Origin: Collinsella aerofaciens
Lineage (GTDB): Bacteria; Actinomycetota; Coriobacteriia; Coriobacteriales; Coriobacteriaceae
Assembly (NCBI RefSeq): GCF_015670795.1
Contig: NZ_JADPCJ010000004.1
Coordinates: 1-64,000 of the forward strand
DNA length: 64,000 nt
Direction: 5' to 3'
The notes below the pieces were generated by a model that saw only the letters and a program-made list of their open reading frames with translations, was not told where the DNA came from and did not search any database. The translations under genes and the position numbers were made by a program. Below are positions 3,006 to 30,631 of the stretch, one piece after another. Each line of letters starts with the position of its first letter. Position 1 is the first letter of the stretch.

Positions 3006-4025
3006 ATGCAGTACACAACCCTTGGCCATTCCGGCATCAAAGTCTCTAAACTCTGCCTGGGAGGCATGAGCTTTGGCGAGGCCAGCCCCGACTTCCACCA
3101 GTGGACCATCGGACCCGACGACACACGCGCCGTCATCAAACGCGCGCTCGACACCGGAATCAACTTTATCGATACCGCGAACTGCTACAGCTTTGGCACG
3201 AGCGAAGAGTACATAGGCGCCGCCCTGCGCAATCTGGGCATCGCCCGCGAGAGCGTCGTGCTGGCCAGCAAGGTTCACTTCAACGAGGGCGGCCTTTCCG
3301 CCGACGGCATCAAACGCGAGATCGAAGGCTCGCTCAAGCGCTTGGGCACCGATTACCTAGACCTCTACATCATCCACCGCTTCGATTACGACGTTCCCAT
3401 GGAAGAGACCATGGAGGCGCTCAATGACCTGGTACGCGAGGGCAAAGTTCGCGCACTCGGCGCCAGCGCTATGTATGCATACCAGCTGCACAACCTTCAG
3501 ATCGTCGCGCGCGGCCACGGATGGACGCCCTTTACGAGCATGCAGTGCCACTACAACCTGCTGTACCGAGAGGACGAGCGGGAGATGATTCCGGTGTGCC
3601 GCCAGTTCGACATGGCCCTTACGCCATACAGCCCCCTGGCGTCGGGACACCTCTGCCGCTCCACGTGGGAAAGCTCGAGCACACGTGGCACCACCGACAT
3701 GACCATGGCCAATAAGTATGACCATGACCGCGCCATCGACATGCCCATCGTTGAGCGCGTGGCCAAGGTTGCCGCCGATCATGACGTGTCGATGGCGCAG
3801 ATTGCGCTGGCGTGGCACTGGGCGCGTGGGGTCGAGGCGCCCATCGTGGGTTGTTCCAAGCCCGAGCGAGTCGACGACGCCGTAGCCGCGCTCGACATAA
3901 CGCTCTCCCCCGCCGAGATCGACTTCCTCGAGGAGCTTTATCAACCGCACGCGCTCGTTGGTCCCAAGGCCCGTCCCGGCGAAAAGCCGCTTGCCGGCAC
4001 TACCAAAGTCAAAATCGCAAAGTAA
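3006..4025 (+). CDS. Aldo/keto reductase, second type
   Basis: A 339-residue aldo/keto reductase of the larger MQYTTLGHSGIKVSKLCLGG type, distinct from the upstream gene. Tetrad residues appear in FIDTANCYSFG (Asp, Tyr), LASKVHF (Lys) and YIIHRFD (His). The cofactor loop is IVGCSKPERVDDAV. I take the start at the ATG at 3006, 8 bases after the upstream stop with an AGGAG just before it; an in-frame start at 2931 would overlap the previous gene. It is translationally close to both neighbours and so shares their operon. The natural substrate is unknown. Confidence 0.92.
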   Translation: MQYTTLGHSGIKVSKLCLGGMSFGEASPDFHQWTIGPDDTRAVIKRALDTGINFIDTANCYSFGTSEEYIGAALRNLGIARESVVLASKVHFNEGGLSADGIKREIEGSLKRLGTDYLDLYIIHRFDYDVPMEETMEALNDLVREGKVRALGASAMYAYQLHNLQIVARGHGWTPFTSMQCHYNLLYREDEREMIPVCRQFDMALTPYSPLASGHLCRSTWESSSTRGTTDMTMANKYDHDRAIDMPIVERVAKVAADHDVSMAQIALAWHWARGVEAPIVGCSKPERVDDAVAALDITLSPAEIDFLEELYQPHALVGPKARPGEKPLAGTTKVKIAK

Positions 4026-23062: not shown

Positions 23063-23360
23063 TCTCACCGCTCCTTTCGGCTTGCAGCTCATCCATTGCC
23101 CAAGGCCTTCGTCGTCCCGTGGCATCGGCTTCCACTATGAGCGTATGACGAAACACGGCGCCGGCGAAGTGACCCGTGGCCCAAATAACGACCCACCAGC
23201 GTTCCTTATGGGCCAAAAGAACTCGCACATGCACGCCCCCGGCCCATAAAACGAGACGTCTGTCCCAATGTTCGATTCGATCCAACAATCCGCACGACAC
23301 GTTTTCGACAACGTATCCAACCGCAAACGCAGCAAGACGCATTCGGCCGCCTTCAAATTT

Positions 23361-23463
23361 ACTCGGGCAGAACCGACTCGGTTTTGTCCGAGTAAACTCG
23401 AGCATAAACTGATCCATGCGATACAATTAACTCGGACAAAACCGAGTCGGAAGGAACCGAGTA
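23361..23463 (+). promoter_or_regulatory. Inverted-repeat leader of the first AAA ATPase gene
   Basis: A 21-base sequence occurs twice in exact inverted orientation (23373-23393 and 23430-23450). Each copy is itself a dyad ACTCGG-N6-CCGAGT. Further half-sites lie at 23361 and 23457, the last one between the ribosome site and the GTG start. This dense symmetry is unlike ordinary promoters and looks like an autoregulatory or binding platform. The remaining intergenic DNA 23063-23360 shows no gene. Confidence 0.75.
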
Positions 23464-23464
23464 A

Positions 23465-24847
23465 GTGGAATTTATTGGCAGGGAGCGTGAGCTCGCCCGT
23501 ATTAAGAAAACGCTCAAAGCACCCGAGCAGCGCAATGTTCTCATTTACGGCAGGCGTCGCGTCGGAAAAAGTGAGCTCATCAAGCAGGCGCTAACCGATT
23601 TGTCGGACGTCGCAACGGTCTATTACGAGTGCCGCCAAACCTCCGAGGCAGACAACCTCGAGAGTCTGTCCGTCCTTGTTGCTGAAGCGCTGAGCTTTCC
23701 TCCGCTCGCCTTCACAGGCATCCGCGAGCTCATCGAATTTCTGTTTGCCCAAGCTAAAGACAAGAACATTACCCTCGTTCTCGACGAATACCCCTACTTG
23801 AGAGATGCGGTTAAAGGCTTAGACAGCATTCTTCAGACCTCAATCGACGCCCACAGGGAAGACTCACGTTTAAACATTGTCCTGTGCGGCTCCTACGTTG
23901 AGATTATGAAATCCCTCATCGAGCATGAAAGCCCCCTCTACGGGCGAATTGATCTCACGCTTGAGCTTAAGCCCATGGATTACTTTGACGCTGCGAAGTT
24001 CTATCCCGCGTTCTCGCCCGAGGACAAGGTGCGGCTCTATAGCGTTTTTGGCGGTATCCCCTTTTACAATCGCCTCATCGATCAATCCCAAAGCGTACGC
24101 GACAACATCATCGAGCTCGTCACGGAACCTGGCGCCCGCTTAGAAAGCGAGGTGCCGTCCTATCTCAACGCCGAGATCTCGAAGATGACCAACGCCAACG
24201 AAGTTTTCGGGGCTCTCGCACAAGGCTACTCCCGTTGGGGGGACGTGCTGGCACAGTCGCACGTCTCGAGCGGTCCGGCCATGGCAGACGTGCTCGACAA
24301 GCTCATGTCACTCGAAATCGTCCAAAAGCGTGCACCCATCAACGACCCTACGAACAAGCGCAAGTCTGGCTACTTTGTAGTGGATCCGCTTTCGCTATTT
24401 TACTATCGCTATGTTTTCCGCAATGCCTCAGCGCGTCAGCTGCTCGACCCGGAAGTCTTCTATGATCGTCACGTCTTCCAAGACTTCGAGGAAAACTACG
24501 TTCCTCATATGTTCGAGGAGATCTGCCGTCAATACCTCGTGCGGCAGAACAGGACCGGCAAGATCGAACCGGCTTTCGACGCCATAGGCAAGTACTGGTA
24601 CGACGACCCCGCAAACAAAACGAGCGGCGAATTCGATGTGGTAACGCAAGACCCCGAGGGCTACGCATTCTACGAAGCAAAGTTCCGCAAATCCCCCATC
24701 ACGCAAAAAATGGTCGACGAGGAAATCGCCCAAGTCGAGGCAACGGGACTCAAGTGCCATCGCTATGGATTCTTCTCCCGTTCGGGCTTCGAAGCTGGCG
24801 AAAGCGATCGAACCGTCTTCATCGACCTGCCGCAGATGTTTGGATAG
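23465..24847 (+). CDS. AAA ATPase with C-terminal PD-(D/E)XK-like (DUF234) domain
   Basis: A 460-residue protein of the archaeal-type ATPase superfamily. It begins MEFIGRERELARIKKTLKAP; Walker A is YGRRRVGKSEL (about residues 25-35) and Walker B is TLVLDEYPYL, followed by sensor LCGSYVEIM. A winged-helix region with repeats follows. The C-terminal DUF234-like part carries a nuclease-type pattern, Asp391, Glu404 and Lys406 in GEFDVVTQDP...YEAKF. The start is the GTG at 23465 after AAGGAA. Such genes are common in gut anaerobes, and their function is not established. The upstream inverted repeat is special to this gene in the window. Confidence 0.85.
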   Translation: MEFIGRERELARIKKTLKAPEQRNVLIYGRRRVGKSELIKQALTDLSDVATVYYECRQTSEADNLESLSVLVAEALSFPPLAFTGIRELIEFLFAQAKDKNITLVLDEYPYLRDAVKGLDSILQTSIDAHREDSRLNIVLCGSYVEIMKSLIEHESPLYGRIDLTLELKPMDYFDAAKFYPAFSPEDKVRLYSVFGGIPFYNRLIDQSQSVRDNIIELVTEPGARLESEVPSYLNAEISKMTNANEVFGALAQGYSRWGDVLAQSHVSSGPAMADVLDKLMSLEIVQKRAPINDPTNKRKSGYFVVDPLSLFYYRYVFRNASARQLLDPEVFYDRHVFQDFEENYVPHMFEEICRQYLVRQNRTGKIEPAFDAIGKYWYDDPANKTSGEFDVVTQDPEGYAFYEAKFRKSPITQKMVDEEIAQVEATGLKCHRYGFFSRSGFEAGESDRTVFIDLPQMFG

Positions 24848-24890: not shown

Positions 24891-24906
24891 TCGAACGATT
24901 GTTCGA
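24891..24906 (+). promoter_or_regulatory. LexA (SOS)-like box upstream of the topoisomerase operon
   Basis: The perfect palindrome TCGAAC-GATT-GTTCGA fits the Gram-positive LexA pattern (GAAC-N4-GTTC). It lies 15 bases before a promoter-like -35 element. If real, the atypical topoisomerase genes belong to the DNA damage response. Confidence 0.65.
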
Positions 24907-24921
24907 TGGATTTCGTGTTGG

Positions 24922-24950
24922 TTGGAATCGTCTGTGGGCTGGGCTATGCT
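24922..24950 (+). promoter_or_regulatory. Putative housekeeping promoter of the topoisomerase operon
   Basis: TTGGAA and TATGCT are separated by 17 bases and lie just after the SOS-like box, about 55 bases before the start codon. Confidence 0.45.
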
Positions 24951-25004
24951 ACCTTGACTATCTATATGACTAAAACGCAGCAAAGGAGCACCGAGAGAGC
25001 GAGT

Positions 25005-27002
25005 ATGGCAAAAAACACCGCAAACTATGGTAACGACAGTATCCGCCAGCTCAAGGACGAGGAGCGCGTACGCCTGCGCCCCGCCGTCATCTTTGGCTCG
25101 GACGGACTCGACGGCTGCGCGCATGCCGCCTTCGAGATCCTGTCCAACGCCGTTGACGAGGCGCGCCAGGGCTACGGCAAGCTCATCACCCTTACCGCCT
25201 TTCGCGATGGTTCCATTCAGGTAGAGGACAACGGCCGCGGCTGCCCGCTCGACTGGAACCCCTCCGAGAAGCGCTTTAACTGGGAACTCGTCTTTTGCGA
25301 GCTCTACGCCGGCGGCAAATACAACAATAACCAGGGCGGCGACTACGACTTCTCGCTCGGCACCAACGGCCTGGGCTCATGCGCAACCCAGTACGCCTCC
25401 GAATACATGGACGTCACGGTTTGGCGCGACGGCAACAAGTACTCCCTGCACTTTAAGAAGGGCAAGGTCGTCGGTGCCAAAAAGAAGGCACTCGAGATTG
25501 AGCCCAGCGACGAGGATCGCACCGGCACCACCATTAAGTGGCGTCCCGATCTTGAGGTCTTTACCTCCATCAGCATTCCCCACGATTGGTATCGCGAGAC
25601 AATGCGCCGCCAGGCCGTGGTCAACGCCAACGTGACCTTCCGCCTGCGTATCGAGGGCGACGATGGCGAGTTTTCCGAAGAGGATTTTTGCTATCCCAAG
25701 GGCATCGAGGACTACGTGCTCGAGAAGGTCGGTACCGACTACCTCACCGAGCCCTTCTTTATCGAGGCCGACCGTCGCGGTCGCGATCGCGAGGACCTGC
25801 CCGACTACAACGTGAAGATTACCGCGTGCATGTGCTTCTCGCGCACCTTCATGATGCAGGAGTACTACCACAACTCATCGTGGCTCGAGAACGGCGGTTC
25901 GCCCGAGAAGGCCGCCCGCAGCGCTCTGACCAGTGCCATCGATGCTTACATTAAGCAACAGGGCAAGTACAACAAAAACGAGAGCGGCATTAAGTGGCAG
26001 GATGTCCAGGACTGTCTGGTGCTGGTGACCAACTGCTTCTCCACCCAGACGTCCTATGAAAACCAGACCAAGAAGGCCATCAATAACCGCTTTATCCAGC
26101 AGGCCATGACGGCATTCTTTAAGGAGCGCCTCTCGACCTACCTAATCGAGAACAAAGACGCTGCCAACAAGATCATGGAGCAGGTGCTCATCAACAAGCG
26201 TTCGCGCGAGAACGCCGAGAAGACGCGTCAGAGCATCAAGACCAACCTACAGCAGAAGACCGACATGGCCAACCGCGTGCAGAAGTTCATCGACTGCCGC
26301 TCCAAGGACAAGAGCCGCCGCGAGATCTACATCGTAGAGGGCGACTCGGCAGCAGGCGCCATTCGCACCTCGCGCGATGCCGAGTTCCAGGGCGTTATGC
26401 CCGTCCGCGGTAAGATCCTCAACTGCCTGAAGGAAGACTATCCGCGCATCTTTAAGTCCGACATCATCATGGATCTCATGCGCGTGCTGGGCTGCGGCGT
26501 GGAAATCAAGGACAAGCGCATCAAGAACCTCGGTGCCTTTGACCTGGATAACCTCAACTGGAACAAGGTCATCATCTGTACGGACGCCGACGTCGACGGT
26601 TATCACATCCGCACGCTCGTGCTCACCATGCTTTACCGCCTGGTGCCCACGCTTATCGACGAGGGCTACGTGTATATCGCCGAGTCACCGCTCTACGAGA
26701 TCAACTGCAAAGAGAAGACCTACTTTGCCTACACCGAGCTCGAGAAGAACGGCATCCTCAAGGAGATTGGCGATCAGAAGTGCTCCATCAACCGCTCCAA
26801 GGGTCTTGGTGAGAACGACCCGGACATGATGTGGCTCACCACCATGAACCCCGAGACGCGCCGCCTGATCAAAGTGGAGCCCGAGGACGTCACCAAGATG
26901 GAAACCATGTTCAATCTGTTGCTGGGCAACGACGAGGCGGGCCGCAAGCGCCATATCTCGGAGCACGGCAAGGAATACCTGGACCAGCTGGACCTGCAGT
27001 AA
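25005..27002 (+). CDS. Atypical type IIA topoisomerase, ATPase subunit (GyrB/ParE-like)
   Basis: A 665-residue ATP-driven DNA topoisomerase subunit. The GHKL ATPase shows the Asn box in EILSNAVDEA, VEDNGRGCPLD and the lid GGKYNNNQGGDYDFSLGTNG. A transducer domain follows, then TOPRIM with EGDSAAGAIR (usual EGDSAGG), PVRGKILN and TDADVDGYHI (usual ...GAHI). These departures, with the Ala in the EGDSA motif, mark it as a divergent pair member rather than the main gyrase. The ATG at 25005 has AAAGGAG 16 bases upstream, rather far, plus a nearer purine stretch. It forms an operon with the A subunit. Confidence 0.88.
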   Translation: MAKNTANYGNDSIRQLKDEERVRLRPAVIFGSDGLDGCAHAAFEILSNAVDEARQGYGKLITLTAFRDGSIQVEDNGRGCPLDWNPSEKRFNWELVFCELYAGGKYNNNQGGDYDFSLGTNGLGSCATQYASEYMDVTVWRDGNKYSLHFKKGKVVGAKKKALEIEPSDEDRTGTTIKWRPDLEVFTSISIPHDWYRETMRRQAVVNANVTFRLRIEGDDGEFSEEDFCYPKGIEDYVLEKVGTDYLTEPFFIEADRRGRDREDLPDYNVKITACMCFSRTFMMQEYYHNSSWLENGGSPEKAARSALTSAIDAYIKQQGKYNKNESGIKWQDVQDCLVLVTNCFSTQTSYENQTKKAINNRFIQQAMTAFFKERLSTYLIENKDAANKIMEQVLINKRSRENAEKTRQSIKTNLQQKTDMANRVQKFIDCRSKDKSRREIYIVEGDSAAGAIRTSRDAEFQGVMPVRGKILNCLKEDYPRIFKSDIIMDLMRVLGCGVEIKDKRIKNLGAFDLDNLNWNKVIICTDADVDGYHIRTLVLTMLYRLVPTLIDEGYVYIAESPLYEINCKEKTYFAYTELEKNGILKEIGDQKCSINRSKGLGENDPDMMWLTTMNPETRRLIKVEPEDVTKMETMFNLLLGNDEAGRKRHISEHGKEYLDQLDLQ

Positions 27003-29375: not shown

Positions 29376-29473
29376 TTCTCAACTATTTCTTAACGCAGAT
29401 TAATTGATTTCTGCTTATTTTTCTGCGTTAAAAAATGTCAGCGTCACTGCTTCGATGCCCTTTGGTCGGTCGT

Positions 29474-29530
29474 TAGCAAAACTTGCAAAAATTAGCAAAA
29501 CTTGCAAAAATTAGCAAAACTTGCAAAGGA
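29474..29530 (+). repeat. Three tandem 19-bp repeats leading the second AAA ATPase gene
   Basis: TAGCAAAACTTGCAAAAAT occurs three times end to end (29474, 29493, 29512), with the last copy ending in the ribosome site AAAGGAG. Each unit holds the small dyad GCAAAACTTGC. The array runs right up to the start of the ATPase gene, so it is probably its operator. Confidence 0.85.
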
Positions 29531-29536
29531 GACACC

Positions 29537-30631
29537 ATGGAGTACAGCAAGAACCCCTTTACCCCGACGTTCGGAAGTATCCCTCCCTTTCTAGCGGGTC
29601 GCGAGCATATTCTGCGTGACATCAACCGTGGTTTTATCAACGGCCCGGGAGATCCAAACCTGTCGACTATTTTTACGGGCGCAAGGGGAACGGGCAAGAC
29701 GGCGCTTCTCTCGCTCCTTTCAGAAACGGCGCTTGAACACGGTTGGATCGCAGCAAATGTCTCCGCCATGCCAGGCATGCTCGAAGATATTATCGAGCGA
29801 ACCAAAGAAGCCGCAGATAGCTACCTCTCACAGCCTCATGCGCGCATAAACGGCGTTCAAATTGGTCCAGTGGGCATCGATTGGACATATGCTCAAGAGG
29901 CTCAGGGCAACTGGCGCACGCGCATGAATGGCATCTTTAAGCAACTCGAAAAACATGACATCGGACTTCTCATCACCATCGATGAAGTCACCGTCGATCT
30001 CGAAGAAATGCTTCAATTTGCCTCTGTTTACCAGCACTTTGTACGCGAAGGTAAAAAAGTTGCCCTACTCATGGCAGGACTGCCCTACAAAGTATCGGCG
30101 TTGCTGCGTAACGATTCCGTCTCGTTCCTCAGGCGTTCCCAATATCATCAGTTGGGACGAATCACTGACGTTGAAATTGCAAACGCATTCCGCAAAACCG
30201 TTGAGGCCGGAGGCCGCTCAATCACGCCAGAAGCGCTCGAGGATGCCGTGAAGGCCGTCGACGGATTTCCCTATATGATGCAGCTTGTCGGATATCGCAC
30301 ATGGGATGTTTCGGAGAGCTCGCCCAAAATCAGCGCATCTGATGTCCAGCAGGGTTCTCTGCTTGCCCGCATGGAACTGCGCGATCGAATTCTCGAAACG
30401 ACCTATCGGGAGCTTTCCGATAAAGACATTGAGTTTTTGCTCGCGATGCTGCCCGATTCTGGCCCCAGCAGGGTCTCGGAGATAGCCAAGCGTATGGGCG
30501 TCGCAAGCAACTATGCAAGCCAATACAAGCGCCGCCTCCTCGAGGACGGCGTCATCGGAGAGCGGGGGCGTGGTCTCGTTGGCTTTGACATCCCCGCGCT
30601 CAGGGAATTCTTGAACGAGAAGGCGTTTTAG
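29537..30631 (+). CDS. AAA ATPase of the Orc1/Cdc6-like (AAA_16) type
   Basis: A 364-residue P-loop ATPase. It begins MEYSKNPFTPTFGSIPPFLA-GRE; Walker A is FTGARGTGKTALL (about residues 46-58) and Walker B is GLLITIDEVTVDL. A lid segment precedes a C-terminal winged helix (RVSEIAKRMGVASNYASQYK, then RRLLEDGVI). This layout resembles replication-initiator-like and STAND-like ATPases with no fused effector. The start ATG follows AAAGGAGACACC directly after the triple repeat. No neighbour suggests a pathway. It is AT-richer than adjacent genes, so transfer is possible. Confidence 0.82.
   Translation: MEYSKNPFTPTFGSIPPFLAGREHILRDINRGFINGPGDPNLSTIFTGARGTGKTALLSLLSETALEHGWIAANVSAMPGMLEDIIERTKEAADSYLSQPHARINGVQIGPVGIDWTYAQEAQGNWRTRMNGIFKQLEKHDIGLLITIDEVTVDLEEMLQFASVYQHFVREGKKVALLMAGLPYKVSALLRNDSVSFLRRSQYHQLGRITDVEIANAFRKTVEAGGRSITPEALEDAVKAVDGFPYMMQLVGYRTWDVSESSPKISASDVQQGSLLARMELRDRILETTYRELSDKDIEFLLAMLPDSGPSRVSEIAKRMGVASNYASQYKRRLLEDGVIGERGRGLVGFDIPALREFLNEKAF

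Follow-up and report, generated by a model that had tools for sequence, protein, structure and literature searches.

Paired inverted-repeat dyads in the leader of a predicted ATPase-nuclease gene of Collinsella aerofaciens as a probable self-addressed operator

Why does a solitary gene for a predicted ATPase-nuclease have two long inverted repeats around its promoter, the second of which runs almost into the start codon? The gene is in a stretch of 64,000 nucleotides from Collinsella aerofaciens (the window), for which the original prediction had claimed a 21-bp dyad present as an exact inverted pair, with half-sites reaching into the start region of the ATPase gene. Both claims held. The 21-mer ACTCGGACAAAACCGAGTCGG is found exactly at 23373-23393 (- strand) and at 23430-23450 (+ strand), and since there is one occurrence per strand, the two dyads are inverted copies of each other. 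The final half-site CCGAGT ends at 23462, 2 bp ahead of the GTG start at 23465. Each copy is in fact longer, a palindrome of 37-39 bp, and the full feature (23358-23464) consists of two near-perfect palindromes with a common core. This 33-bp core, ACTCGG-N6-CCGA-N-TCGG-N6-CCGAGT, is present twice in inverted orientation (23361-23393 and 23430-23462), flanking the promoter of the gene; an alternative reading of it is a pair of 18-bp units, ACTCGG-N6-CCGAGT, that overlap. The distal dyad (23358-23396; TTTACTCGGgCAgAACCGA-C-TCGGTTTTGtCCGAGTAAA) is located upstream of the promoter, and the proximal dyad (23427-23464; TTAACTCGGACAAAACCGA-G-TCGGAAGGAACCGAGTAA) over the expected transcription start and ribosome-binding site. 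A candidate -10 hexamer, TACAAT, was read from the sequence at 23422-23427 (+), 2 bp ahead of the proximal dyad core, and a Shine-Dalgarno-like GGAAGGA (23449-23455, +) is within the proximal dyad. No good -35 was found for TACAAT, and a simple promoter scan gave no full sigma-70 match, so the promoter is a reading and not a demonstrated element. A TATAAT-like hexamer is also found 2-11 bp upstream of the proximal dyad in most homologues of the clade. The best dyad of the leader scored 21, whereas dinucleotide shuffles averaged 5.7 (0 of 40 as high). The 2.34-Mb genome of the strain had no further full dyad, only chance-level matches with 2-3 mismatches, and a search of phage genomes gave zero exact matches to the dyad pattern among 2.9 million viral contigs.

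The gene (23465-24847, +) encodes a protein of 460 aa. Its ATPase_2 domain (23465-24064, +; residues 1-200; PF01637, E 1.7e-20, Pfam match 3-200) has a Walker A motif, GRRRVGKS, at residues 29-36 and LVLDE at 104-108. In the AlphaFold2 model (pLDDT 94.8, pTM 0.91), which was built from 56 locus proteins, the ATPase is followed by a winged helix-turn-helix (24185-24379, +; residues 241-305, with helices at 241-252, 258-265 and 270-282 and strands at 286-289 and 302-305), a helical linker and a PD-(D/E)XK-like nuclease core. The nuclease-like domain (DUF234; 24572-24784, +; residues about 370-440) was matched by PF03008 at residues 313-409 (E 4.3e-15), has modelled strands at 373-381, 386-396 and 399-406 and a helix at 414-426, and includes E389, D391, E404 and K406. 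Among 56 homologues D391 does not vary and K406 is kept in at least 90%, and E404 is invariant among 14. The earlier suggestion of a nuclease-like C-terminus with Asp391, Glu404 and Lys406 thus agrees both with the conservation and with the strand-strand-helix core of the model. The nearest solved structures in Foldseek were the archaeal ATPases SSO1545 (2fna) and PAB2304 (2qen), followed by Orc1/Cdc6 and NLR-type STAND proteins. SSO1545, PAB2304 and the STAND/NLR-type ATPases share the arrangement of ATPase and winged helix, whereas the nuclease domain of the 460-aa protein falls outside the sequence matches to SSO1545 and PAB2304.

A place for the protein among candidate phage-defence genes is suggested by the PADLOC profile of PDC-S27 (PDLC04984), which matches it at E 5.9e-42 over most of the profile length (3-418 of 474). 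The available text of PMC12988326 describes PDC-S27 as an ATPase fused to a PD-(D/E)XK protein, counts about 8,000 of them in one survey, placing it among the commoner candidate defence genes, and notes that most PADLOC PDCs are without experimental validation. The single gene and the domains are the same in the 460-aa protein, where the fusion of ATPase and PD-(D/E)XK domain is indicated by Pfam, the conserved residues and the model. The protein is, on profile evidence, a candidate single-gene defence protein of PDC-S27, in line with the defence-type system that had been proposed, and it would act as a nuclease in defence. PDC-S27 in the available description (PMC12988326) comes with no mention of leader dyads, and the present gene has two.

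The upstream regions of homologues, to which the original prediction had pointed, indicate that the dyads covary with the ATPase. The ACTCGG dyad was kept at the gene start in eight of the nine homologues of a genome-wide scan (L063-L068, L070 and L076), which gave homologues with 54-60% identity in Lachnospiraceae, Ruminococcaceae, Spirochaetaceae and others, and close homologues devoid of dyads, which had been named as the outcome that would speak against the idea, did not appear in the clade at identities of at least 54%. Homologues of this clade with 54-66% identity, from Collinsella-type genomes, Lachnospiraceae, Ruminococcaceae and Spirochaetaceae, have the dyad in the same place. Both copies, with core starts 69-75 bp apart, are found in L064, L067, L070 and L076; in L065 the distal dyad was scored and the proximal copy is degenerate, and L010 (92% identity) has lost the distal dyad together with the intervening promoter region. 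The Sutterella homologue L069 (44-45% identity) is without an ACTCGG dyad. Across 20 dyads the arm positions were paired in 96.5%, and changes on both sides, such as ATTCGG...CCGAAT and ACTCGA...TCGAGT, were found in 8 cells compared to 2.8 in shuffles (0 of 500 as high, slid registers far lower), counts that come from related sequences and are not to be read as probabilities. Within the clade, conservation is highest in the winged helix (72%, vs 59-65% in the other domains). No neighbouring gene is common to the loci of the clade, except at the parE locus of close relatives.

Outside this clade the dyads differ. The paralogue in the same genome (31% identity) has a different dyad of 54 bp, of the TATAGCTAGC type, and further clades of the genus have other, private dyads, the one of clade E (L027) being weak with a score of 6. 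We surveyed homologues less than 60% identical, scoring the dyad in the 120 bp before the start with neighbouring genes of the same loci as controls (start codons and neighbouring genes were set by simple ORF rules). A score of at least 10 was reached by 65% of 49 homologues and by 12% of 97 neighbouring-gene leaders (Mann-Whitney p 5e-11), and the enrichment was confined to the 120 bp before the start, with a strong dyad in just 2-6% at upstream offsets of 120-480 bp. The remaining 35% of the homologues scored below 10, several of them being without a visible dyad (L110, L127 and L128); high-GC actinobacterial members had weaker leader dyads, and among archaeal homologues the dyad was clear in L129 and weak in L125. 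Leader similarity of at least 14 was found in 6% of the pairs at less than 40% protein identity and in 77% at 60-70%, compared to 0% in the same identity bins for control DNA 240-360 bp upstream. In multiple regression on leader similarity the winged helix had the largest effect, 0.23 (bootstrap 0.09-0.39), which is moderate and comes from pairs that are not independent; for ATPase, linker and nuclease an effect of zero is within the bootstrap interval. The dyad overlaps the core promoter (-35 to +1) in 26 of 30 scored cases with a -10-like hexamer, a count without a matched control, and in the other clades it is found at different promoter positions, on the -35 or on the -10.

The gene is present in only some strains, at several loci in the genus, and strains without it upstream of parE retain relics of the dyads. 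A solo distal dyad, at the right edge of which the sequence changes sharply, is left in eleven gene-less strains, the proximal dyad with a few codons in three (G013, G020 and G032) and a 5' gene fragment in one (G005). The solo dyads in gene-less strains had no sign of extra constraint compared to their flanks (identity 0.88-0.95 vs 0.76-0.96 in adjacent flanks) and drifted at least as much as most of these, as is expected if constraint on the dyad ended with the gene. Precise excision from empty sites was rejected as the relic endpoints vary, and these varied endpoints seem to fit gene loss better. The mobile system proposed in the original prediction is therefore retained as far as gain and loss of the gene at several loci is concerned, but not as precise excision. 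In G039 (L222, 8342-8515) a second copy of the ATPase gene has an internal deletion, and its 3' end is fused to a dyad; a divergent AAA gene (888 aa) starts 27 bp from this relic. In G029 (L221, contig C6) two ACTCGG dyads at 3357 and 15191, one of distal type and one of proximal type, bracket an 11.8-kb island of pPIWI-RE genes and a methylase/restriction pair, with no ATPase remnant detected between or beside the dyads. The sharp edge of the solo dyads and the G029 island leave a minor place for a role in recombination.

We consider it likely, at a probability of roughly 0.7, that the leader works as a double operator, recognised by the protein whose gene it precedes, and that this would repress the predicted nuclease. 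This is the least strained reading because nothing but the protein is conserved together with the dyad and because the dyads are on the core promoter at clade-specific positions. In different phyla the dyad and the gene are inherited together, with no neighbour conserved beside them; the dyad decays to relics once the gene is lost, and it varies with the DNA-binding domain of the protein, if with a moderate effect. The autorepressor proposed earlier thus gains from the comparison of sequences, in which the dyads are family-wide, private to clades, on the core promoter and varying with the winged helix, and its binding, repression, control by ATP and link to infection are predicted as follows. 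The winged helix of the ATPase-nuclease would bind the 18-bp units, ACTCGG-N6-CCGAGT, which overlap in pairs. The proximal dyad covers the point where transcription is expected to begin as well as the Shine-Dalgarno sequence, and the distal dyad is just upstream of the promoter; with this placement, transcription would be shut off when both are occupied, and an oligomer formed in an ATP-dependent manner may bridge them. A potentially toxic single-gene defence nuclease would in this way be held low, and infection might relieve the repression when the protein is titrated or activated. In C-protein restriction-modification systems and in toxin-antitoxin operons, the level of a dangerous enzyme is kept down by a DNA-binding protein that the system encodes itself and that sits on a dyad at the promoter. 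The DNA-binding protein of those systems is a separate regulator or antitoxin, whereas here the candidate regulator, the ATPase and the nuclease are one protein. The regulation of such autoregulated operons has been reviewed (PMC3874152).

The dyads could instead delimit a mobile unit or be its target sites, with ATPase and nuclease cutting or inserting there and the leader as a recombination site, which we find unlikely. The several loci of the gene in the genus, the solo distal dyads with their sharp right edge, the two dyads around the G029 island from which the ATPase is gone, and a distant likeness of the ATPase to TnsC (the profile also matches VchTnsC, E 5e-7) would all agree with it. 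However, the repeats at both ends, target duplication and precise empty sites of a transposon or homing element were not found: in the sequence examined there is no dyad 3' of the gene and no target-site duplication, and the relics end differently, with the distal dyad only, the proximal dyad and codons, a 5' fragment, or a dyad and the 3' end. The relic dyads also drift, the dyads of other clades are at other promoter positions, and the layout of distal and proximal dyad recurs in other phyla, which indicates that the distal dyad travels with the gene. A regulator other than the ATPase, either a host repressor or a separate regulator of a defence island, could also use the dyads as operators, given that autoregulation is a prediction from sequence comparison and that winged-helix domains can instead serve oligomerisation. 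This is quite improbable, as dyads specific to a clade accompany the ATPase from phylum to phylum with no neighbouring gene in common, the full dyad is nowhere else in the genome of the strain, and leader similarity tracks the winged helix of the protein itself.

It is very unlikely that the proximal dyad works at the RNA level, as a hairpin in the transcribed leader that causes attenuation or controls translation at the Shine-Dalgarno sequence, even with GGAAGGA inside the dyad and arms that are complementary also as RNA. Transcripts from this promoter would not include the distal dyad, which is upstream of the -10, and this argues against an RNA element; the predicted start is inside the first half-site of the proximal dyad, which would leave the transcript without the full left arm. 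Moreover, four predicted transcripts had no more stable folds than shuffled sequences (z +1.0 to -0.5), and in other clades the dyad is on the -35 or -10. Rfam gave no match to the leader at gathering score, and a known RNA element was rejected, the sub-threshold matches being only to microRNA models and caused by the inverted repeat. As Orc1/Cdc6 came next after the archaeal ATPases in Foldseek and has a similar fold of ATPase and winged helix, the protein might also be regarded as an initiator with an origin-like binding site beside its gene. Archaeal orc1/cdc6 genes often adjoin their own recognition boxes, a protein gene beside its own inverted-repeat sites. Here, however, the repeats are on the core promoter, the protein has a nuclease domain, the gene is at a chromosomal site beside parE and in only some strains, and no origin features were seen, with no AT-rich unwinding element noted at the leader. 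The protein also falls short of the curated orc1/cdc6 profile TIGR02928 (16.3 bits against a cut-off of 181.3), and this explanation is scarcely credible.

Autoregulation by the ATPase-nuclease combines features of which some are known already, as dyad autoregulation is an established type of control and the protein family is a recognised defence candidate. The apparent novelty is that an ATPase-nuclease in a single protein is encoded together with an operator that occurs throughout the family and is private to each clade. The open literature that we searched had no previous account of these leaders, which is weak evidence with subscription papers outside the scope, and we know of no established trigger or regulation of PDC-S27. 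The private leader dyads provide a cheap and concrete handle, as they point to the likely DNA target of each protein. They predict a one-gene circuit of regulator and nuclease, and they suggest how many paralogues can coexist without cross-talk. As the relics persist, dyads can also mark lost copies of the gene.

The finding might be widened by the leaders of PDC-S01 and by a second ATPase family with leader iterons. It is a rather doubtful, if attractive, extension that prokaryotic defence genes of the ATPase-winged-helix type generally have self-addressed leaders, in PDC-S27, part of PDC-S01 and the second Collinsella-type iteron family. The operator would then be part of the switch itself: an ATP-dependent oligomer held on DNA would keep the nuclease inactive, and loss of binding or titration during infection would both derepress and arm it. 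PDC-S01, a sister family with AAA_14 and DUF4143, was rejected as a clean negative control, with strong leader dyads in 5 of 11 representatives (L253, L240, L238, L232 and L244). In the window, the second ATPase-winged-helix gene (29537-30631), in which no nuclease was found, has three tandem 19-bp repeats of TTAGCAAAACTTGCAAAAA directly 5' of it (29473-29529). Its family is expanded in the genus, often with 4-9 matches per genome, several of them broken, and several paralogues have differing leader iterons. Finally, a short palindrome, ATCGAACGATTGTTCGAT, is found at 24891-24908 before the topoisomerase gene (24906-27002) and is mostly retained in close relatives.
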